Source: Erinaceus europaeus (Eukaryota; Chordata; Mammalia; Eulipotyphla; Erinaceidae). From it: 64,000 nt of DNA. Made by a program: the position numbers and the translations under genes. Below, piece after piece: positions 5,295 to 64,000 of this stretch. The stretch covers positions 75,319,577 to 75,383,576 of the forward strand of contig NC_080172.1 in the NCBI RefSeq assembly GCF_950295315.1, in the 5' to 3' direction. Position 1 is the stretch's first letter. Each line of letters opens with the position of its first letter. Below the pieces are notes generated by a model. It ran no database searches. It saw only the letters and a list, made by a program, of their open reading frames with translations, and was not told the origin of the DNA.

Positions 5295-6215
5295 TTTTTA
5301 AAAGACTTTATTAATTTATTCCCTTTTGTTGCCCTTGTAGTTATTGTTGTTGTTATTGCTATTGTCGTTGTTGGACAGAGAGAAATGGAGAGAGGAGGGG
5401 AAGACAGAGAAGGGGAGAGAAGGACACCTGCTGACCTGCTTCACCGCTTGTGAAGAGACTCCCTGCAGGTGAGGAGCCAGGGGTCCTTACACCTGTCCTT
5501 GCGCTTTTTTTTTTTTTAATTTAAGAAAGGATTAATTAACAAAACCACAGGGTAGGAGGGGTACAACTCCACACAATTCCCACCACCCAATCTCCATAAC
5601 CCACCCCCTCCCCTGATAGCTTTCCCATTCTCTATCCCTCTGGGAGCATGGACCCAGGGTCATTGTGGGTTGCAGAAGGTAGAAGGTCTGGCTTCTGTAA
5701 TTGCTTCCCCGCTGAACATGGGCGTTGACTGATCGGTCCATACTCCCAGTCTGCCTCTCTCTTTCCCTAGTAGGGTGTGTCTCTGGGGAAGCTGAGCTCC
5801 AGGACACATTGGTGGGGTCTTCAATCCAGGGAAGCCTGACCAGCATCCTGATGGCATCTGGAACCTGGTGACTGAAAAGAGAGTTAACATACAAAGCCAA
5901 ACAAATTGTTGAGCAATCATGGACCCAAAGCTTGGAATAGTGGAGAGGAAGTGTTAGGGGGGTACTCACTGCAAACTCTAGTGTACTTCTGCTTTCAGGT
6001 ATATATTTTGCAGTAGTTTATGGATACGTGTGAACATGTGCTGTCTCTCACAGAAACTGGTGTATATCTAGGTTTTGGGACTTTGTTAGAAAGTGAACCA
6101 CCTGAGATGAAATTAGAGTATACTATGAAAGGAAAGGTCTCACCCGAGTAATGAAGCTGAAGGGTTGCGCTTTATGCCACATGCACTTAACCTGCTGTGC
6201 TACCGCCTGATTCCC
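5295..6215 (-). repeat. SINE A split by R1 retroposon
   Basis: Tail and core at 5295-5508, head at 6164-6215. Confidence 0.8.
5509..6163 (-). mobile_element. R1 poly(A) retroposon, copy 1
   Basis: Minus-strand copy with its A tail at 5506-5520 (T run on +). It is inserted in an A-family SINE whose halves lie at 5295-5508 and 6164-6215; the target TTGCGCTTT is duplicated on both sides. Compared with the copy at 22366-25571 it lacks an internal block of several hundred bp (near 5940). No long ORF. Probably moved by L1; its source is not recognised. Confidence 0.75.
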
Positions 6216-9392: not shown

Positions 9393-9536
9393 TTGTTTCA
9401 AGATGATGAGAAAGGATCCAAACTGTGGGTGACAGTGCTCTGCAGAGTACTTCCATGGGGGTAATGAGAGATTGTATCCATGTGCCAGCAGCTGCACTGT
9501 GATCCAATAATTCCCTAATAAAAATTATTTTAAAAA
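9393..9536 (+). mobile_element. Unidentified short poly(A) retroposon
   Basis: Starts after GAAATATGAGCAAAGTC (9376-9392), ends CCCTAATAAAAATTATTTTAAAAAA and is followed by GAAATATGAATAAGTC (9537). Contains no tRNA boxes; family not recognised. Confidence 0.5.
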
Positions 9537-9552
9537 AGAAATATGAATAAGT

Positions 9553-10229
9553 CAATTTTAGGTTACATGATGTACTTTTTCAGTGAGAGCAAAGCTCATG
9601 GTATTAATTAACTTCATCATGTAATGTGAGACAAGTACTTAACACGATTTCAAAAACATTTTGACAAAGTCATAAACAAAGGTACCACACGTGGCTACTG
9701 AGGGACCTGGTTTGTATATATCAGTGTCAAAGAGACAAGCATGCAATGCAGTGCACTCTCAGTTTGTCACTTGGGACCCCTATCGGCAGCAGAATACTGA
9801 CAGGTTGAAGGTTCTGCCCTAGAATGAAAAATGCTATATTCCCAAATAAATGTTTCTGCAGGGGATTATTTTTCAGATTTTTATCACACTTAAGCCCTCC
9901 ACCCCACCAAAGGGTGGAGAGGGAAAGTCTGAAAAATCTTCTGTATAAACAATTCCCATTAGCAGGAGATTTGGGGCTGGACAGTAATTGTCCAATAAAA
10001 TTTAATTCTCACATATAGAGTCTCCTCCCACGCTGATAGAATTTGGAATAGCAGGCCTGAGAGTGAAGATAGAAGAAACAGGTTTATCTAAGGTTTTCTC
10101 CACGGAATTGATAGCGGCACCGCAAGATGCAGAAAACACAGTCCTATGTTTGGGCAATTGGATATGCACAGTAAGGGATGCACACAACGCTCTTTATATG
10201 AGAGAAGGCAGGACAACATACGGCCAAGA
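9553..10229. other. Unique DNA upstream of the MTF2 promoter
   Basis: No recognised repeat. A CCAAT-like GTCCAATAAAA near 9990 is the only regulatory hint. Confidence 0.5.
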
Positions 10230-10260
10230 GCGCAAGACACACTATTGTGTTAGTGTCGAC

Positions 10261-10269
10261 GGCGGAAGT
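10261..10269 (+). promoter_or_regulatory. ETS-family site
   Basis: GGCGGAAGT contains the GGAAG core used by GABPA/ELK-type factors at CpG-island promoters. It lies about 150 bp upstream of the ZNF143-like site. A short motif, so chance occurrence is possible. Confidence 0.4.
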
Positions 10270-10414
10270 ACTTGGCCCACAGAGACGTTAAAGAGTTCCT
10301 CTTTGTTCAGCTTCGGCCGTGGACGCAGGCAGAGGTGTTCTTCCGCGCTCGTCTCGCAGTCTCCGCCCCTTCGCGGCTCTGGAGAGCTGCCATTCGGCAC
10401 CCGAGTCCCTCCGC

Positions 10415-10428
10415 ATTCCCAGAATGCA
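10415..10428 (+). promoter_or_regulatory. ZNF143/STAF-type site
   Basis: ATTCCCAGAATGCA matches the core of the ZNF143 (SBS) motif, which is usually within 100 bp of a transcription start in CpG islands. It sits 19 bp before a YY1 site, a common pairing. Confidence 0.65.
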
Positions 10429-10446
10429 CCGGCAGTCCGCGGGAAA

Positions 10447-10460
10447 CCAAAATGGCGAAG
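10447..10460 (+). promoter_or_regulatory. YY1 site, probably just downstream of the start of transcription
   Basis: CCAAAATGGCGAAG is a near-consensus YY1 site in the sense orientation. In many mammalian genes this orientation lies just inside the transcribed region, which suggests initiation around 10430-10450 and a 5' UTR of about 235-250 nt. The TSS itself is inferred. Confidence 0.6.
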
Positions 10461-10631
10461 GGCTGTAGCGAAGTGGGCTGTATTTGAGGCCGGTGTAAGA
10501 ACGCTTGTTCTACGCCCCCCCAACTCTTGTCTCCAGGACCTCGGTTTGTGCGTGTGCATGTGCGGGGTGCCCTGTGGGGCGGGTGTCCAGTAAGTGCGCG
10601 AATTCGCAGGGGAAGTGCCCACAGGGACGTG

Positions 10632-10636
10632 ATTGG
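10632..10636 (-). promoter_or_regulatory. Inverted CCAAT box
   Basis: ATTGG within GTGATTGGTTGC is an NF-Y-type inverted CCAAT box 47 bp before the ATG. If functional it would serve a start close to exon 1's end; otherwise it is transcribed 5' UTR. Confidence 0.35.
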
Positions 10637-10682
10637 TTGCTTTTTTCCTGTATGAAGCGGTTGGCACCACTGAAGTGACCGA

Positions 10683-10687
10683 ATGAG
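10683..10687 (+). CDS. MTF2: MTF2 exon 1, coding part (Met-Arg start)
   Basis: ATG at 10683-10685 is followed by AG and a good donor (GTGAGA at 10688). Joining ATGAG to exon 2 gives M-R-D-S-T-G-A-G, the known MTF2 N terminus, with codon 2 split 2+1. Most of exon 1 is 5' UTR. The start is chosen because it is the only ATG that joins in frame to the exon 2 protein at a splice donor. Confidence 0.93.
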
Positions 10688-11250
10688 GTGAGAGACCTTG
10701 GTCTGGGAACCGACTCTTCCGGGAAGGTGGGGGGTTGGGGAGGAGGAAGAAAGGAAGCAAATAGAAAAGGGAAAGATGGAGGACCGAGGTGGGGGTGGGA
10801 GCTCCAGTGTGTGTGTATGTGGGTGTCTTGCATTTCTGTGTGTGCTGAAAAGAACGGTCCGAAGGGAGTCGTTCGTTGGGTGCTGGAGAAAATAGGGTGG
10901 GCAGAAGCCAAGCCCAGCGTTGGGGAAGTCGCTTGGAGGCACAGATGAGACGTTGAGGCGGGGCAGCTGTGTTTGGAGGGGCAGGAAGGAACCTGAGGCA
11001 GGGAGCCGGTTGGAAGGGCTGGGTGAACCTGGTGACGGCAGGGGGCTGGGGGGGTGCGGGGTGCTGAGTCGGGGGCTGCCTGGGACCTGCGGGGGCGCGA
11101 CGGGCAGTCGCGGCTCGGACCCGACCCGGAGGGCAGTGGAATTGTTTGCAACTGACGTGTGGGGGGTAGGATGGATGGAAGGGCAGACTGGAGTAGGGAG
11201 ACACTGAGTGGAACCTGGGAGAAACCCTGGAAGTTTAAGGGGGGGGAGAG

Positions 11251-12100
11251 TGGGAGGGAAAGTATGAGGTGGAGAAAGGGGTTCGGACCCTGTACCCTGA
11301 TATTTGGGGAACACCAGACAGTCTTCTATTTACTTAAATGTAACTCAGATCCCAGCTCAGATGATGTAGATTTATATTACTGTATTCATTTCTTACAGCT
11401 GAGGTAATAATGATGGAAGGTGTTTTTGATTTTTTTTTTTTAAACTAATTTGTCAAGTTCACTTAACAGAAATCGGTAATGCCAGAATTCTTAACTCTCC
11501 AGTTTACAATCTGGTTGCTAGAATTTTTCTTTGGAAGCAACTCGAGAGAACAGATGGATTTCTTAGGGTGACTTGAGGATCAGTGAAGGTTTTTGTGAAC
11601 AATGGGCAAAGCATAAAGCATCTAACTTGGGTTTAGGACAGGGCCCATTTTATATAGCAAACGTGAAAACCTAGGTAGGCCTGTATATAGCATGTAAGAG
11701 AGCACCATCTGAAGTCAGTACGGAAGGAGATCTATGTAAATAGTGCCTGACTTAATGACTCCAGATGCTCTGGGAGTGACTTTCCCTTTCAGGTTGTATA
11801 TACCCTGGCTGCAGGATGGTTTTAATTTCCATGTGTTTGTGCTCCATAATTCTTTTTTTTGGGAGGGGGCAGTGAATTTGAAAATATGTGGGCAAAGTAA
11901 AATCGCCTTAATTCTTACATGACCTTCTTCAAAGGTTTGAAAAAATGCTTTACATGGGAGCATTTTGACTAACAGCTCTACATGTCTACATGCCCAGTAA
12001 TTTCAAAAAGGATTGTCAACATGATATCCTATTCTTAATTTGGAATATCATTCACAGTTTTCAGCATTTGCAGTGATCGTTTGAGAGGGAATACAAGGTG
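11251..12100. other. MTF2: Repeat-free start of MTF2 intron 1
   Basis: No exon, RNA or repeat recognised; possible unique regulatory DNA next to the CpG island. Confidence 0.5.
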
Positions 12101-20970: not shown

Positions 20971-21865
20971 ATGGCCATATAACACATTTTGAGATCTGGG
21001 AGTGTGATGCCTCCAGTTCTGTTCTTCCCAAGATTGATAACTCTAGGTATTTTCTGGTTCCAGATAAACATTTGTAGCTTTTGTCCTATTCTCCTAAAAA
21101 ATTGGGTGAATCCTTGATGGGGATTGCATTTAATTTGTATATGGCTCTGGGCAATATACTCATTTTGATAATGCTAATCCTTCCAACCCATGAACGCAGA
21201 ATATCTTTCCATTTCTTTGTGTCTCTTTTTTCCCTTGAATAGTGCCTCGTAATTTTCAATATACAAATCTTTCACTTATTTTGTTTATTCTTATAGTAAA
21301 AGGGGTTGATTTCTTCTGACTTAGTGTTTGCATAGAGGAATGCCACTGACTTTTGTATGTTAATTTTGAAGCCTTACTATATTACCTGATATTCCTGCTG
21401 TATTATTTAGGTTTTTCTATGTATCTATCATATCATCTGCAAATATGACATCTGCAAAAAATGACAGTTTGACTTCTTTTTCAATCTGTATCCCTTTAAT
21501 TCCTTGCTCTTGCCTGATTGCTATGGCAAGAACTTCCAGCACTGTGTTGAGTAATGGTGATAGTAGGCAGCCCTGTCTATTACCTGATCTGAGGGAGAAT
21601 GCTTCTAGTTTTTTATCATTGAATATGATGTTGGTTATAGAGTTGCTGTATATGGACTCGATTAGGTTAAGGAATTCCCCATCTATTCCTATGTTTTGTA
21701 ATGTTTTAATCATGAAGGGATGTTGGATTTTGCCAAAGGCTTTCTCTGTTTCTATTGATATGTAATCATGTGGTTTTTGGTCTTGCTTCTGTTTGGTCTT
21801 GCTTCATGTTTTTGATCATGTTATATATTATATGGATCATGTTATTGATGTGGTGAATCATGATG

Positions 21866-22741: not shown

Positions 22742-23998
22742 AGCTTTCCTATTATTTAACCCTCTGGGAGTATGGACCCAAAGTCATTGTGGAATGCAGA
22801 AGGTAGAAGGTCTGGCTTCTGTAATTACTTCCCTGGCAGGTCAATCCATACTCCCAGCCTGTCTCTTTCTTTCTCTAGTGGGCTGGGGTTCTGGGGAAGT
22901 GGGACTCCAGGACACATTGGTGGGGTTGTCTGTCCAGGGAAGTCTGGTCGGCATCATGCTAGCATCTGGAACCTGGTGGCTAAAAAGAGTTAATATATTC
23001 CAAAGGGCCCATGTTTATACTAGGTTGTTTTTTTTTGTTTTTTTTTGTTTTTTTCCCCTGAGCCTGACATCTGATATGCAGGTGGATCCAAGTTATTGTC
23101 TGGGGAGATGATGTCATGGCTGGAAAAAGGACCAGAAAGCTGGATCAGGGAAGTGAGTAGCTCCCAGATATGGGAAAGAGGTATAAATATTGTTGATTGT
23201 TGACTGTAAACCCCATCAATTTGATGTGATCTGGGGCCCATATTCAGCTTAGAGGCCTATGTGACCTCTGCATTCCTGGAGATCTGAGCTCACATTCTGT
23301 GGTCATGAGTAGGAACATTCCAAGCTGCCCCAATTTCAGGACCCATCTTTCTCAGGTGTAGCATAGAGTATGTTGTCCAGCCTCCCTTCAGAGGATAGAA
23401 CATTCTCTACCATGGTTGATCCAGGTTGAGGGCAGAGTCCTAGGGGGGGGCCCACAAAGAGGTCTATTGTTCTTGATAGAGATGACCAGTAACAATGGAG
23501 AGAGGGATTTATTGGAGGTCTAGGCCCATCATGTCTGTTTAGGAATCTCAGGATTCCCTGACTAGGGCCCCAGCTGATGGGGTGGGTGGCCTGATAGTGA
23601 CTAAAGAGTCATCATTAAAGTATGCCAGTCTCTTGCCCTTATTCAGCTTTTGTAGTCCTTACTTTGATATGGTTAGCTTTGGAGTGAGTGAAGGAAGTAT
23701 AATAGGAAATAGGTGAGGAGGGTGTCCAAGTCTAAGTAAACACTTTCATTATGAACTTTATAGTGTCTTTTTAGGTCTTTCTACTTGCTTGCTGCATATA
23801 CTGATTCACTGCAGACTATTGTGCACTTTTGCTTTTAGGTATATATTTTGCCCTAGTTTATGGATACATGTGAACATATGCCCTATCTCACGGGGCCTGG
23901 TCTATATTTAGATTTTGGGACTTTGTTAGGAAGTGAACCACCTGAAATGGAATTAGAGAATCCTATGAAAGAAAAGGTCTCACCTGAGTAATGAGGCT

Positions 23999-25473
23999 TC
24001 TTCTAGCGTTTGCCCTTCTTCCGTAGCCAGTCAACAGCATCAGGTTGAGCCTGATGTAAAGTTTCGAGACCTCCTTTGAATCTGGAGAGGTGGCAGTCGT
24101 TGACTATGTGGGTCATAGTCTGTCTGGAGCCGCAGGGGCAGTTCAGGTCCCCAGTCTCTGGCTCCCCAGCAATGGAACATAGCGGCGCACCGGCCATGGC
24201 CTATTCGATAGCGATTGAGGAGGGCCCAATCATAACGTGCTAGGTCAAAGCCGGGTTGACGCTTGCAGGGGTCTGTGATGAGGTGTTTGTTCTTTACCTC
24301 AGCTGACTGCCAACTCTGTTTCCAAGAGTCTGGAACAGAGAAGTTCAGTGTAGGCATAGGGGACCAGATTGGGTGACGAGACGTCAAGCGTTGGACAGGG
24401 TGGGCGAAGATATCCGCGTCTATTGGCAGGTCCGGTCGAGCGTAGACGTGGGAAATGAACTTAGATGATGCCGCATCCCGACGAATATCTGGCGGGGCGA
24501 TGTTGCTAAGAACTGGCAGCCATGGAACCGGGGTGGAATGGATGGTTCCAGAAATGATCCTCATGGAGGAATATAATTTGGAATCGACCAAGTGGACATG
24601 GGGGCTACGGAACTATACTGGGGCACAGTATTCTGCAGTGGAATAGCATAATGCCAGAGATGATGATCGCAGTGTGGAAGCGCTCGCGCCCCATGAGGAG
24701 CTGGCCAGTCTTGCAATGGTGTTATTCCTCACGCCCACCTTTGCTGCAGTTTTTATGAGATGTTCGTGAAATGACAGAGTGCGATCGAGAGTAACGCCAA
24801 GATAGACTAGCTGGGCTTCATGCCGGATTCTCGTATCGCCAAGCTGCACATTAAGCTCACGTGAGGCCGAGGCATGGTGTAGATGGAAAACAGATGATAC
24901 CATTTTTGCAGTGCTAGGGATTAGTCGCCATTTTTTACAGTAATCAGATATCAGAGACATGTCTTTCGTGAGTGTTTCCTCGAGGATGTCGAACTTGGAT
25001 GCCTGAGTTGCACAGCAGATGTCATCAGCGTAGATGAACTTCCTTGAAGAAGTTTCTGGGAGGTCATTGATGTAAATATTAAATAGCGTAGGAGCCAGAA
25101 CAGAGCCCTGGGGGAGGCCACTTGAGACAAGTCTCCATCTGCTAGACTTGTCACCCAGATGCACCCGGAATCTTCTGTTTTGGAGAAGAAACTATATAGT
25201 GTTGGCCACCCATGGAGGCAGGCATCTTGAGATCTTGACTAGGAGACCACGGTGCCAGACCGTGTCATAGGCTGCTGTGAGATCAACAAAGACTGCACCC
25301 GTCTTTAAATTCTTCTGGAATCCATTCTCAATGTAAGTTGAGAGGGCCAGGGCTTGTTCGCAGGTAGATCTTCCTGGGCGGAAACCAGCTTGGGCGGGTG
25401 ATAGGAATTTCTCTGTAAGATGAGAAATACGTGACAGAAGCAGCCTCTCGAGGAGTTTGTAACACACGGAGAG
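23999..25473 (-). mobile_element. Non-L1 non-LTR retrotransposon (Jockey/CR1-like), 5'-truncated
   Basis: 1475 bp bounded by a perfect 13-bp target-site duplication, GAGTAATGAGGCT, at 23986-23998 and 25474-25486. The related repeat at 5509-6163 shows the same target uninterrupted. Read on the minus strand, it begins inside the reverse-transcriptase domain and ends four bases after a TAG stop (24003-24005), with a short AAGA tail and no poly(A). It has many CpGs, unlike its surroundings. The reverse transcriptase is not L1 (compare the L1 RT at 21417-21713), nor like BovB/RTE or avian-type CR1 as I know them. Family placement is by motif memory and needs a search. Confidence 0.85.
24003..25473 (-). 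pseudogene. Reverse-transcriptase ORF2 fragment of the non-L1 element, disabled
   Basis: One frame runs through RT blocks: GFRPGRSTCEQ finger motif, catalytic motif DLTAAYDTVWH (about 25250-25290), SGLPQGSVLAPTLFNIYINDLP region (about 25075-25130) and the YADD box at 25021-25032. After the RT comes a thumb/C-terminal region and a CPCG-x-THIVNDC zinc-knuckle-like end, finishing in ...KGKR and TAG. Breaks seen: in-frame TAG at 25192-25194, in-frame TAG at 24613-24615 (where related elements have a Trp codon) and a one-step frameshift between about 24110 and 24190. The endonuclease domain and ORF1 are missing through 5' truncation. Few lesions over about 490 codons suggest a young copy. Confidence 0.8.
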
Positions 25474-25627
25474 GAGTAATGAGGCTGAAGGGTTGACATT
25501 CCATGCCTGACCGTCTCTGGACAAAGTCTGAAGTGAAGCATGCTGAGGGTGGTACTAGTTGCGTTGATTAGGTTTATAAATATTTATTTATTCCCTTTTT
25601 TAAAAACACACAAATTTTTAAAAATCT

Positions 25628-37184: not shown

Positions 37185-37640
37185 GTAGTAATTCTCTAGA
37201 GAAGTAATGACTGTCTTTCCAATGAAAGGAATATACCAACTACCCTTCCAAGTCATTGGTTAATAAGTTTTGATTACATGTGGCATAATCATTTATTTAT
37301 TGAGTACTTAGAAACTGTGATTTATAACTTTTTAATAGTAACTAAACCCAATTATAAGATTCAGGATAGTTATGACCTGCTCACATTATGTCAGCTTTAA
37401 TTGCAGTTGCTGTAAATTGTTATTTTGGAATGGTTGTAAACTCCTAGCCTCATTTAGACTTAGGCAATGAATGAATATGAGACTTATCATTTTACTTTAA
37501 ACTTACTTGTTTCTGGAGAGTATTTGTGATTTGAGGTATATCACATTTTCCCTCAGTTTAAGGTTTTTAGTCAACTTTTAAATTAATACATGAACTATAC
37601 CATTGGTATAAAATAATTATAAGTAAGATAATCTTATATA
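37185..37640. other. MTF2: Unique DNA before exon 2
   Basis: AT-rich, no repeat recognised; includes the branch and acceptor region of intron 1. Confidence 0.5.
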
Positions 37641-37662
37641 TGGTCTTCTATTTCCTAAACAG

Positions 37663-37861
37663 AGACTCTACAGGGGCAGGTAATTCACTGGTCCACAAGC
37701 GGTCTCCTTTACGTCGAAACCAAAAGACCCCAGCATCCTTGACCAAGCTGTCTTTACAGGATGGACATAAAGTTAAAAAAACAGCATGCAAATTTGAAGA
37801 GGGTCAGGATGTCCTAGCTAGATGGTCAGATGGCTTGTTTTATCTTGGAACTATCAAAAAG
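37663..37861 (+). CDS. MTF2: MTF2 exon 2: N terminus and first half of Tudor domain
   Basis: 199 bp, acceptor TTTCCTAAACAG, ends phase 0 at Lys68. Encodes residues 2-68: a basic Ser/Thr-rich leader and the start of the Tudor fold (from about Cys44). Trp56 and Tyr62 of the aromatic cage that holds trimethyl-lysine 36 of histone H3 are present. The donor is AAAAAG|GCAAGT, so the intron begins with GC instead of GT; all other donor positions are consensus. Confidence 0.97.
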
Positions 37862-37966
37862 GCAAGTTACCTTAATGTGAGATATCTTTTGCTGTTCTTG
37901 GCAGTAAGCTTTTTAATATCTTTGAATTTAAAAGGAAGTCACCATAAATTTTCTTCTGTATTTCAG

Positions 37967-38048
37967 ATAAACATATTGAAACAGAGCTGCTTCATCATAT
38001 TTGAAGACAGTTCTAAATCCTGGGTTCTCTGGAAGGACATTCAAACAG
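37967..38048 (+). CDS. MTF2: MTF2 exon 3: second half of Tudor domain
   Basis: 82 bp, acceptor TGTATTTCAG, residues 69-95 plus the first base of Gly96. Holds Phe80 and Ser86; with Trp56 and Tyr62 these keep the spacing of the PHF1/MTF2 methyl-lysine cage. The frame requires an exon end at ACAG|GCAGGT, a second GC donor; a GT donor four bases later would shift the frame. Intron 2, before this exon, is only 105 bp. Confidence 0.96.
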
Positions 38049-38164
38049 GCAGGTGCTACTGTAATTCCTCCTGAACATGCTTTATACAGAAATTTGGTTT
38101 TCTCTGCTTGTTAATATTGTTTGTTGAGTATTGTGTATTAAGATAACTCAACAATTTTTTTTTT

Positions 38165-45164: not shown

Positions 45165-46392
45165 TTAAATTTATTTCTTTATTGGGGAATTAATGTTTTG
45201 CATTCAACAGTAAATGCAATAGTTTGCACATGCATAACATTCCCCAGTTTCCCATTTAACAATACAACCCCCACTATGTCATTTATCATCCTTCATGGAC
45301 CTGTATTCTGCCCACCCACCCACCCCGAGTCTTTTACTTTGTTGCAATAAGCCAATTCCATTTCAGGTTCTACTTGTGTTTTCTTTTCTGATCTTGTTTT
45401 TCAACTTCTGCCTGAGAGTGAGATCATCCCATATTCATCCTTCCATTTCTGACTTATTTCACTCAACATGATTTTTTCAAGGTCCATCCAAGATCGGCTG
45501 AAAACGGTGAAGTCACCATTTTTTACAGCTGAGTAGTATTCCATTGTGTATATAGACCACAACTTGCTCAGCCACTCATCTGTTGTTGGACACCTGGGTT
45601 GCTTCCAGCTTTTGGCTATTACAAATTGTGCTGCCAAGAACATATGTGTACACAGATCTTTTTGTGTACACATATGGATGTGTTGGGTTCCTTAGGATAT
45701 ATCCCCAGGAGAGGAATTGCAGGGTCATAGGGTAGGTCCATTTCTAGCCTTCTGAGAGTTCTCCAGACTGTTCTCCACAGAGGTTGGACCAATTGACATT
45801 CCCACCAGTAGTGTGGCAGGGTTCCTTTGACCCCACACCCTCTCCATCATATGTTTCTCGGCCTTTTGGATCTCTTCTGTGGTGAATATTCTGTCCAAGT
45901 CCTCCCCCCATTTTTGGATGGGGTTATTTGTTGTCTTGTTGAGTATGGCAAGCTCTTGATATATGTTAGTTATTAAACTCTTATCTGATGTATGGCATGT
46001 AAAGATCTTCTCCCATTCTGTGAGGGGTCTCTTGGTTTGGGTAGTGGTTTCTTTTGCTGTGAAGAAGCTTTTTAATTTGTAGTCCCATAGGTTTATACTT
46101 GTTGTAGTCTTCTTTGTAATTGGGTTCGTTTCATTGAAAATGTCTTTAAAATTGATGCGGAAAAGAGTTCTGCCAATATTTTCCTCTAAGTATCTGATAG
46201 TTTGTGGTCTAACATCCAAGTCCTTGATCCACTTGGAATTTGTATTTGTATTTGGTGAAATACAGTGGTTCAGTTTCATTCTTCTGCATGTTTCAACCAT
46301 TGTTTCCAACACCATTTGTTGAAGAGACTCTGCTTTCCCCATTGAATAGTCTGAGCCCCTTTGTCAAAGATTAGATGTCCATAGGTGTGGGG
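45165..46392 (-). mobile_element. L1 3' end, 1.2 kb, 5'-truncated
   Basis: Minus-strand ORF2 tail (KTTNNPIQKWGEDLDR; MEYYSAVKNGDFTVFSRSW) and 3' UTR. ORF broken near 45725. In intron 6, antisense to MTF2. The 5' break is at the same L1 position as the fragment at 1-49. Confidence 0.88.
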
Positions 46393-46949
46393 GAAATTAT
46401 TTAATAAATACTCAACATAGAAACAAAAAAATATTAAACACACACAGAGAATAAAATAGGGTCTGAGGATGTAGCTTAGTTCCAGAGGTCCTGTGTTTGA
46501 TTCCAGTCATTGCCAAGACAAAAACAAATTAAATGATGACACTGAAAAATAAATTTAAACATACACACCTATCTGGAATTAATTTTGTTGTATAGAGGGG
46601 GGGAGATTACTTTAAATTTAGTATTTTTCTATAGTTACTTAGTAATTCCAAAACAATTTGATAATTCTTTAATATTCAATAATGTTTATAGCTTATTCCA
46701 TTTTATTAATAATGACTTGCTTATTATTTTATAAAATGATAAGTAAATGGATTATTAAAGTACGAATGATAAATTTGACATTTAAATACCAAAGGGTAAG
46801 TATAGTACAATAAAACATAAAACCTTTCTCTGCCAGCTCATGCCTGTACCATTCAGCTATTGTTCAGTCAAGTCTTAGTTGCCCACAGAAAATAAAGAGG
46901 GAAATACTGGTCATTCAAGAACACCAGGTGTAAGCCACCAGCTTACAGA
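46393..46949. other. MTF2: Intron 6 DNA with a tRNA-like fragment
   Basis: GGATGTAGCTTAGTTCCAGAGG with GTGTTTGATTCCAG (46465-46510) looks like an old tRNA-derived SINE head; the rest is unrecognised. Confidence 0.45.
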
Positions 46950-47275
46950 TGTACCATGACACCAGCCTAAATGCCATGGGCAGATGACCTCATCAGTGTG
47001 TCCTAGAACCCCACCTCCTTAGAGCCCTGCTCCAGTAGCGAAAGATGGAAACAGGCTGGGGGTATGAGTCAACTCATCAACACTCATTTCCAGCAGAGAA
47101 GCAATTACAGAAGCCAGACCTCCCACCTTCTGTACCCCATAGAGATCTTTGGTCCATATTCCTAGAGTGATAAAGAATAGGGAAACTTCCAGTGGAGAGG
47201 ATGGGATACCAAACTCTGGTGATGGGAATTGTATGGAATTGTACTGTTCTTATCCCACAATCTTACTGATCATTA
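46950..47275 (+). mobile_element. Old R1/R2-related retroposon
   Basis: Plus-strand relative of R1: AAGCAATTACAGAAGCCAGACC at 47101 onward and GATGGGAATTGTATGGAATTG near 47220 match R1's minus-strand reading with many differences. Intermediate between R1 and R2. Confidence 0.6.
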
Positions 47276-60368: not shown

Positions 60369-60525
60369 TGGTCCGGGAGGTGGCACAGTGGATAAAGCAT
60401 TGGACTCTCAAGCTTGAGGTCCTGAGTTCAATCCCCGGCAGCACATGTACCAGAGTGATGGCTGGTTCTTTCTCTCTCCTCCTATCTTTCTCATTAATAA
60501 ATAAATAAAATCTTTAAATATATAT
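60369..60525 (+). repeat. SINE C
   Basis: Close to consensus. Confidence 0.9.
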
Positions 60526-60779
60526 ATATAGTTATATCCTAACTTTACAGAAAACTTTACGTGTGCTCCTCTCCCTTTTGATGCCACCTCTCCCTTCCTT
60601 CTCACTTGTCATGCTCTATTTTGTATGATTTCAGGTTAGATAAGAATAAAAAACAATAAGAAAGTACAAGTTTTTCTAGCATTGGGTGGATTTTTCATGT
60701 ATCTCAAAGTTGTGAGTTAGTATCTGCCATGTTATATGTTCAGTTTTTATATTTTTAGTTAATTTTTTTAAAAATTCAG

Positions 60780-60950
60780 GTTTATGTCTGGGAAAGAAAT
60801 AAAGAAGAAGAAGCATTTGTTTGGGTTGCGAATACGTGTTCCTCCTGTGCCACCAAATGTGGCTTTCAAAGCAGAAAAAGAACCTGAAGGAACATCCCAT
60901 GAATTTAAAATTAAAGGCAGAAAGGCATCCAAACCTATATCTGATTCAAG
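60780..60950 (+). CDS. MTF2: MTF2 exon 11: DNA-contacting loop and basic tail
   Basis: 171 bp, acceptor AAAAATTCAG, donor TTCAAG|GTAAAA, ends phase 2 in Arg387. Residues 330-386 include the IKKKKH stretch at 337-342; Lys338 and Lys339 are the residues shown in the literature to be needed for CpG-DNA binding by MTF2. Followed by a proline- and lysine-rich tail. The next exon is outside the window. Confidence 0.97.
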
Positions 60951-61159
60951 GTAAAAGTTGATCTGTGGTTTAGTTTTTCTCTTTAGTCTACTTGTGATTT
61001 TTAAAATTGTGATATTTAGTTCATTAGTATATTTGAAAATGCAAGTGGCAGTTACCCTGATTGATTTTTCTGTTTATAATTTTAGATCTTAGGTCTTCCT
61101 AGAGTAGGCCCTATTGCTGCTGTTAGTAAACAGCTTACATACTGGCCTTTTCATTTGTT

Positions 61160-62650
61160 TAATTTCTCATTCATTCATTAGTTCCACCTATCAGGTACTT
61201 TATTTAAGTACTGTAGATACAATAAAATTTTTGTCCTCATGGAGCTTACATTATAATGGGGGAAAAGAAAGTGATAAGTCAAATAATTACAGCTCATGTG
61301 AGTTTTATTTGAGATATATCATAGTTTTAGATTATGGTGGGGTAAATGGAGATAAAGGGACCTACTTTCAGGAGTCTCATGAAAGACCTATTTAAATTAG
61401 GATTGTGCTTCAACTGAAACGTAAATGTGAGAAGGATGTAATAGTGTGAAGAATAAAGAGAATACTCTTTTAAGTAGTGAAAATTTATCAAGGGTGGTAG
61501 CTATAAGACTTGATCTAGGAGCTCACAAAAGGCTGATGTATGAATAGGAAAGTAGCATCAGGTGTTGGAAAAGCTGACTGAGGCTTGATGTAAAGTCTTA
61601 AGGTCTTTTCTGGAGTTTAAGTTGTTTTCTAAGATTAATCAGTACACTATTTTAAAGATTTAAGCAAATTAAATTATTAAAAAATTCTTTGGATACTGTT
61701 TGGAGAAATGGACTGGTACAGAGGAAAGAAACAAGAAAATTAAGACATAAAATTGTATAGGTGAAAGATGACTGCAGGGATGGGTGGTAGCAGCCATATA
61801 GTGAGAAAAATAGATTCAGGACTTCTGGTGGAGACAACTTAATTGACCTTACTAAGTTTACAAAAGAAGGGAGGGATAAAGTGGGATTTCTGGTGGGTCG
61901 TGAGATCTAGATTTTGGTAAGGTAAATGAGGCATTCTTCTGACTTTGAAATTCTGAGGGATAACTGTGAAGTTCTGATTTACATATAAATGATTGTGTAC
62001 ATATAAATGATTGTGTGCATCAGGAACTTAAAGGTCAGGGCAGATGCTGTAAGTTTGAGAATGGTGATTTATGAAGCCATGAGAATGAAGGAAAATTACT
62101 GAAAGAGCAAGTTGAGAATGAAGGAAGAGAAAGTAACCCAGAATAATGTTCTATCATGGAAGAGTTGAGATAAACAAAGGAGATAAAAAAGAATAACCAT
62201 TGAGGAAATATTGGTATAATGAAAAGCAGGAGGGAGTGTTTCAAGAAAGATTTGTGTTTTGTATACTAGTTAATACTAGTTAGTGTTCAGTTACTAGTTA
62301 ATCTTGACAAAAAATTTTGGGGTGTGGGGGAGGATAAAAGACGAGTGGGTTGGGAAGTGAGATTGAATCTAGTATTGCCTGTTTTACATATTAAAACTGA
62401 ATCTTTTCTATAAGCAAGAGATGTAAGTAGATTCAAAATGATGATGATGAAAATAGAAAATAGTCTTCTATAATTCTTAATGAGAGGGAGAAAGTGGCAG
62501 GAATTTGTGTTATCAAATGAGCTTAATTTTAAAGGAATTAGACAAGTGGAATGAAAGCTAAAGCATGAAAGGAAATAGTCAGGTGAAGAAATTTGGGGGG
62601 GGAGAACTTTTTGGTGTGAGTATAGGTAGGGATGATGCAGTGGAGATGAA
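61160..62650 (+). repeat. Ancient mammal-wide interspersed repeat
   Basis: TCCTCATGGAGCTTACATTATAATGGG and following text (AAGATGACTGCAGGGATGG; GGAGGGAGTGTTTCAAGAAAG) follow, with heavy divergence, a common old eutherian repeat. Class (L1M or L2 type) not decided. Confidence 0.45.
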
Positions 62651-63660
62651 ATTGGTTGATGAGAGAAGAAAAGTAGTAATTGAAGATGTTATAAAATCTT
62701 TGAGAAACCAAGATAGATTTAGAACCTAAATGTGGAAGTGGCATTCAATAGTAGGATTTGGGGGGGGGGAGGTACAAATGCTATTTCTTGTGTAGAGTTA
62801 GCATTTAAAGATCATAAAGATTATAAATTGTGACTTTGGTATTTAGGATCCCTATTTTCTGAATTAAATGAGAGGTAGCTGAGAGGGGCAAGAGAGAGAA
62901 ATTTAAAGAGTAAATAAAAGGCACAACATAAGTTATTTTGAAGAGAAAGTAATTATGTGGATTCACAGTGTTTCCTGTCCATATATGATTGTAATAAGGT
63001 ATATGTTACATTAAGGCTTTCTTTTTTCTTTGAGGAAAAGAATATTATCACTTTCAGGTTATATCGTTAGTGTTTTGTTAGAATTATCCATGTTATGAGC
63101 TAGAAAAGAAGTTTTCATAAACTTATTTTCTTATTTCTATTATGACTTTAGTAGAAAATTCCATCTGTGGTATCTGCCAGGTTTTTATTTGATACCACCA
63201 TGTATATGATTTCTTTTAAGTCATTCTGAATTCCTTCTGGGCTATATGTACAAATTGGTTCTTTAACCTGAGGGTATTTTCTTTAGTCCAGGGATTTTTT
63301 ATAAATGCCATGTTGATGATCTTTCAAAAAGAAAGATGCATAACCTGTATTATCCTTGAGACTGTTTTTTATTGCTTTCTTTGTTCCTCTAGTTTTCTTT
63401 GTATTTCACTTTTCTTTCTGAATCTTGGTGTTTGGAGGAATAGCAGTATAAGCTTTCCTAGTTTTCTATTCATACTTAATGTATAGTATTGCTTCCTTTC
63501 CTTTTTTAAATGAAATTTCTTGAACAATTTTTTTCTACTGCCTGACCCATTTTACTAGCCTGCTGTACACAGATTTGTCACATAACTGTATTGTGGCAAA
63601 GAAAACACCTTTGTAATTCTTAACCTAATAATATTGTTTAATGTGCTGAATAAATGAAAT
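62651..63660. other. MTF2: Unique intron 11 DNA
   Basis: No recognised young repeat or exon. Confidence 0.5.
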
Positions 63661-63663
63661 TAC

Positions 63664-63779
63664 CTAGGTGGGGGAGACAACATAATGGTTATGCAAACAG
63701 ACTCTCATGCCTGAGGCTCCTAAATCCCAGGTTCAATTCCCCGCACCACCATAAACTAGAGCTGAGCAGTGCTCTCTGG

Positions 63780-63822
<43 letters not shown>

Positions 63823-63880
63823 CTCTCTCTCTCTCTCTCAAAAATAAAATAAATAAAATTTTAAAGAAAAATAAAATTAC
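63664..63880 (+). repeat. SINE D with (TC)n
   Basis: CT repeat at 63785-63840; AAATTACCTA on both sides (63656 and 63873). Confidence 0.88.
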
Positions 63881-64000
63881 CTATTAGTTGAGTTTTCCCT
63901 TCTTCCCTTTTATTAAAGATGCTTTAACTAGTGCATTTTCCTTCCTTTTGTTTGTTATTTACTTTTATGTCTTAAAAATAACTAAGATCTTCCTTGTTTT

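Follow-up and report, generated by a model that had tools for sequence, protein, structure and literature searches.

An element encoding a reverse transcriptase (RT) unlike that of LINE-1 (L1) is present in the hedgehog DNA studied here, a stretch of 64,000 nucleotides (hereafter, the window). It raises the question of whether a foreign LINE recently entered the hedgehog lineage, possibly from an arthropod, as an initial annotation had proposed, and of the family to which such a LINE might belong. We conclude that the element is real but not new, being most likely a member of a hedgehog family that has already been published.

The window itself appears, from its coding matches, to be located at an MTF2-like gene: two exon-like stretches of an ORF at 37571–38074 (plus strand) have PDB matches to metal-response element-binding transcription factor 2 (MTF2). 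These matches point to an animal host, most likely a mammal, and the tRNA-type SINEs of the window suggest a hedgehog. A GC-rich tract at 9501–11475 (55% GC in 10001–11000), with long overlapping ORFs and a CpG observed/expected ratio of up to 0.69, is perhaps a CpG-island promoter. At the other end of the window, 61001–63000 combines a low GC content with a strong excess of G over C (skew 0.33 and 0.55), and Tandem Repeats Finder, applied to 60500–64000, gave no repeats apart from one of 18 bp and a TC run.

The insertion and its empty site

The element occupies positions 23999–25473 on the minus strand (1,475 bp) and, on the basis of its target-site duplication (TSD), its empty site and its RT homology, is classified as a 5′-truncated non-LTR retrotransposon (LINE), probably of the Vingi family. 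The TSD is a 13-mer, GAGTAATGAGGCT, starting with AGCC in the sense direction and present at 23986–23998, on the 3′ side of the element, and at 25474–25486, on its 5′ side; the two copies are identical at 13/13 positions, as the initial annotation had indicated for this minus-strand insertion.

The insertion adjoins a host repeat (23806–23998, plus strand) that is 85.5% identical to 5966–6158, and the second copy of this repeat (5966–6167, plus strand) carries the empty site. Alignment of the joined flanks of the element with 5966–6167 was gap-free, with 174 of 202 positions identical; 193 of the aligned positions correspond to the left flank and the duplication, and nine to the right flank. 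The second copy contains the duplicated site once (12/13), followed by the right flank (9/9), beyond which the copies diverge. The empty site is paralogous, and its right arm is short: the claim that the other repeat copy lacks the element held, though the right-flank match extends only 9 bp past the duplication. The same annotation had described the host repeat as young and lineage-specific, a description that stands as a proposal; its two copies differ by K2P 0.155. The data support an insertion postdating the separation of these copies. Further shared pieces, at 22742–22997, 5618–5891 and 46933–47187, may be parts of the host repeat. No second match to the element DNA was found in the window at E≤1e-5; at E≤1, there were only three 18-bp matches (E 0.27) with one scoring scheme, and none with another.

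The perfect TSD, within a host repeat of which the other copy is empty, therefore identifies a real insertion, consistent with the earlier opinion that the element is not a contaminant. Contamination of the assembly with foreign DNA might be suspected from the location of the closest protein among the matches listed, on an ENA contig, but it is rejected by the TSD and the empty site, and we consider its probability negligible.

Coding content, distinction from L1 and mode of insertion

The minus-strand frames 25192–25554, 24613–25191 and 24040–24612 constitute a single frame interrupted by two TAG stops, from which a frameshift leads into 24003–24200 (minus strand); the count of lesions given at the outset, two stops and one frameshift, was correct. 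Within the LINE ORF, positions 24163–25473 (minus strand) encode the RT and C-terminal portions, as judged from RVT_1 matches and from an intact relative, P0166, with 97% identity. Each of the two RT pieces contains the RVT_1 domain (PF00078; E 1.8e-12 and 1.2e-11), and all the RT motifs that had been noted (GFRPGRST, AAYDTVWH, LPQGSVLAP and YADD) are present. The end of the ORF, beyond the frameshift (24003–24200, minus strand), carries a zinc knuckle of the form CPCG...H...C, matching the previously noted CPCG...THIVNDC; this assignment is based on the frame and on the last 45 residues, which differ from those of P0166 at one position. The 3′ end of the element lies just past the stop codon (24003–24005), after a tail of 4 nt without poly(A) (23999–24002, minus strand), such that the element ends in TAGAAGA, followed directly by the TSD. 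At the other end, the first residues of the element, LSVCYKLLE, align to the interior of longer relatives, such as P0166, and the copy is therefore 5′-truncated. An endonuclease domain was detected in one relative, P0202, in a part absent from the truncated window copy.

The window provides its own L1 sequences for comparison, in the form of ORF2 fragments at 21417–21803 and 45725–46363 (minus strand). These L1 pieces match LINE-1 ORF2 chains in PDB at 2e-36 (RT piece) and 8e-39. By contrast, the best match between the RT of the element and the L1 RT of the window covers only 12/40 identical residues (E 0.081), and L1 ORF2 was absent both from the five PDB matches obtained at E≤1 with a 192-aa RT piece and from the 20 PDB matches of the element RT profile, which included an R2 protein at 0.63. 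The element is thus unlike the L1 of the same window, in agreement with the initial annotation, and an L1 identity was rejected on the basis of an RT without an L1 ORF2 match and the lack of a poly(A) tail.

The structure of the copy is consistent with insertion by target-primed reverse transcription, in which an endonuclease would have nicked the target, reverse transcription would have begun at the 3′ end of the RNA and stopped early, at the RT domain, leaving a 5′-truncated copy, and the 13-bp target duplication would have resulted. L1-type target sites start A-rich. Mobilization of the copy in trans by the hedgehog L1 machinery is very unlikely: L1 ORF2 fragments do occur in the window, but the element has no poly(A) tail and its TSD starts with AGCC. 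The element was probably moved by LINE machinery of its own rather than by that of L1, because both poly(A) and an L1-type A-rich target start are lacking.

Relatives, family membership and age

Relatives were abundant at E≤0.001: 1,126 of 1,286 candidates for the 192-aa RT piece, 45 of 118 for a 190-aa C-terminal piece, and 1,898 of the 7,990 candidates scored for a 437-aa read-through; those of the 192-aa piece and of the read-through are described here from the best 120 of each. P0166, a stop-free protein of 582 aa encoded on a 2,072-bp ENA contig, was the closest among the matches listed, with 97% identity over all 437 aa, whereas the other 119 matches listed for the read-through were 43–73% identical. 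The window sequence and P0166 differ at 12 of the 437 positions, and polarization with 33 relatives assigned six of these differences to the window and four to P0166, with two unclear. The existence of private changes on both sides suggests that the two may both be decaying copies of one young family. It is quite unlikely that P0166 comes from another animal, such that a donor or vector of the hedgehog Vingi still carries a 97%-identical element; if it did come from an animal other than a hedgehog, the question of the donor would be directly testable. Scans of viral contigs with P0001, alignment A1 and P0166 gave 2, 11 and 2 pattern matches, respectively, none of which was confirmed as a relative.

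The initial annotation had assigned the element to the Jockey/CR1 group; in the literature, hedgehog elements of this sort are called Vingi. The Vingi clade is sister to Ingi, its elements are not known to carry an RNase H domain, and RepeatMasker places Vingi under I-Jockey. Kojima, Kapitonov and Jurka reportedly described Vingi elements in hedgehogs in 2011, and we take the hedgehog family to be the one named Vingi-1_EE. At E≤0.1, RNase H was not matched by any of the four window pieces, any of the ten long RT proteins scanned (P0166 among them) or any of four C-terminal relatives (P0121, P0122, P0123 and P0125). This absence fits Vingi but is common to other clades, so it does not single Vingi out. 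In the available sections of PMC3183009, Vingi-1N3_EE is credited with 311 copies of less than 1% divergence. We consider it highly probable that target-primed reverse transcription of a Vingi-type LINE gave rise to the window element, now a decaying, 5′-truncated copy, Vingi-1_EE being matched by description rather than by sequence; the element would then presumably belong to Vingi-1_EE specifically.

A different, undescribed LINE family, from Jockey, Daphne, CR1 or some other clade, might instead have reached the hedgehog lineage independently of Vingi, which is not the only clade without RNase H. A survey of the African hedgehog, Atelerix albiventris, reports, in the part available, 51 unclassified LINE consensus sequences, seven of which were called a possible unknown family of this species, and the word Vingi is not used there (PMC12026660). 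Nevertheless, I-Jockey LINEs form a separate class in this survey (4,476 copies, 2.232 Mb), and, according to PMC3183009, young LINEs other than L1 are already explained by Vingi in the European hedgehog. A separate family is, therefore, improbable, and we retain the assignment to Vingi.

The initial annotation had argued for the youth of the copy from its few lesions and its many surviving CpGs, and our estimates point in the same direction. The element has 61 CpGs in 1,475 bp, an observed/expected ratio of 0.66, as against a mean of 0.22 over the 126 tiles of the window and 0.03 in the left flank; only three of the 126 tiles reach 0.66, one corresponding to the element and the other two located in the GC-rich tract (9.5–11.5 kb). 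Private divergence was estimated at 0.8–1.1%, from 6–8 private amino-acid changes and the two stops; the two stops alone gave 4%, with a range of 0.5–15%. At 2.2e-9 substitutions per site per year, the rate used in the portion of PMC12026660 available, and on the assumptions that this rate is correct and that P0166 is a member of the family to which the window element belongs, the copy would be about 4–5 My old (95% ranges together, 1.6–8.9 My). On the same assumptions, the pair of host-repeat copies provides a loose upper age limit of about 35 My. The data thus support the view that this is a young copy.

Origin and comparison with known elements

Among the best 120 of the 1,898 relatives of the 437-aa read-through, the named fish sequences were those of carp (59% identity over 68% of the query) and eel (60% over 80%), whereas the named arthropods, a pseudoscorpion (45%), a planthopper (47%), a psyllid (45%) and aphids (45–48%), were more distant. 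With the 192-aa piece (best 120 of 1,126), the fish Muraenolepis was 48–50% and a psyllid 52% identical, and fish were therefore not uniformly closer. A quick tree was inferred from 70 rows, the window sequence and 69 of 281 proteins, picked by hand and mostly from metagenomes; it includes no reference LINEs, so its groups do not name a clade, and none of its rows is named as an amniote. In this tree, the window element and P0166 formed a pair (SH-aLRT 99) within a six-row group (SH-aLRT 97). A group of 16 rows around the window element, with a value of 92, below the 95 mark, included the carp protein, and a group of 47 rows (SH-aLRT 100) included the proteins of carp and eel and no named arthropod sequence. 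An arthropod, previously suggested as a possible source, is not favored as the donor, given the identities, in which named sequences are a minority of the matches listed, and the composition of the 47-row group.

Vertical inheritance of Vingi from an amniote ancestor, with survival in hedgehogs and no horizontal transfer, is the less probable origin but by no means a negligible one. Kojima, Kapitonov and Jurka are said not to have ruled it out in 2011. Vertical descent would demand that active copies disappeared from most other mammals, and the window element falls in the 16-row group with the carp protein (SH-aLRT 92, <95), in a tree with no row named as an amniote. In its favor, the human genome retains a Vingi trace, X12_LINE, and reptiles are reported to carry Vingi elements (PMC5753468).

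A recent entry of a foreign LINE into hedgehogs remains plausible, and it is a published hypothesis: the accessible parts of PMC3183009 and PMC5753468 name Vingi in hedgehogs as a likely horizontal transfer, the former citing Kojima, Kapitonov & Jurka 2011 for "likely horizontal transfers in mammals such as Vingi TEs in hedgehogs". In the main text, as available, of a survey of transfers between vertebrates (PMC7070016), neither "hedgehog" nor "Erinaceus" occurs. The reading given in the initial annotation stands as regards a non-L1 LINE, a real insertion and a young copy; the data do not support the view that such an element is unexpected in hedgehogs. The locus adds a copy, found independently and firmly anchored, of what is most likely a young, previously published hedgehog LINE family other than L1, and it offers a useful test of the ability to pick out foreign LINEs from raw sequence.

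RTE1_Sar, of the common shrew, offers a parallel as a LINE family whose arrival in a single eulipotyphlan lineage has been attributed to horizontal transfer, probably from nematodes, but it belongs to the RTE class; its authors, in the text available, report no significant matches in hedgehog reads (PMC6542046), and identity with it was rejected by description rather than by sequence. Like LINE-1, the window element is a non-LTR retrotransposon apparently inserted by target-primed reverse transcription, but its RT does not match L1 ORF2 and it has no poly(A). The closest likeness, by description and not by sequence, is to Vingi-1_EE and the Vingi clade, with which it shares what looks like a hedgehog host, an apparently young non-L1 LINE character, the absence of any RNase H found and a proposed horizontal transfer, differing in that the window copy is 5′-truncated and broken.
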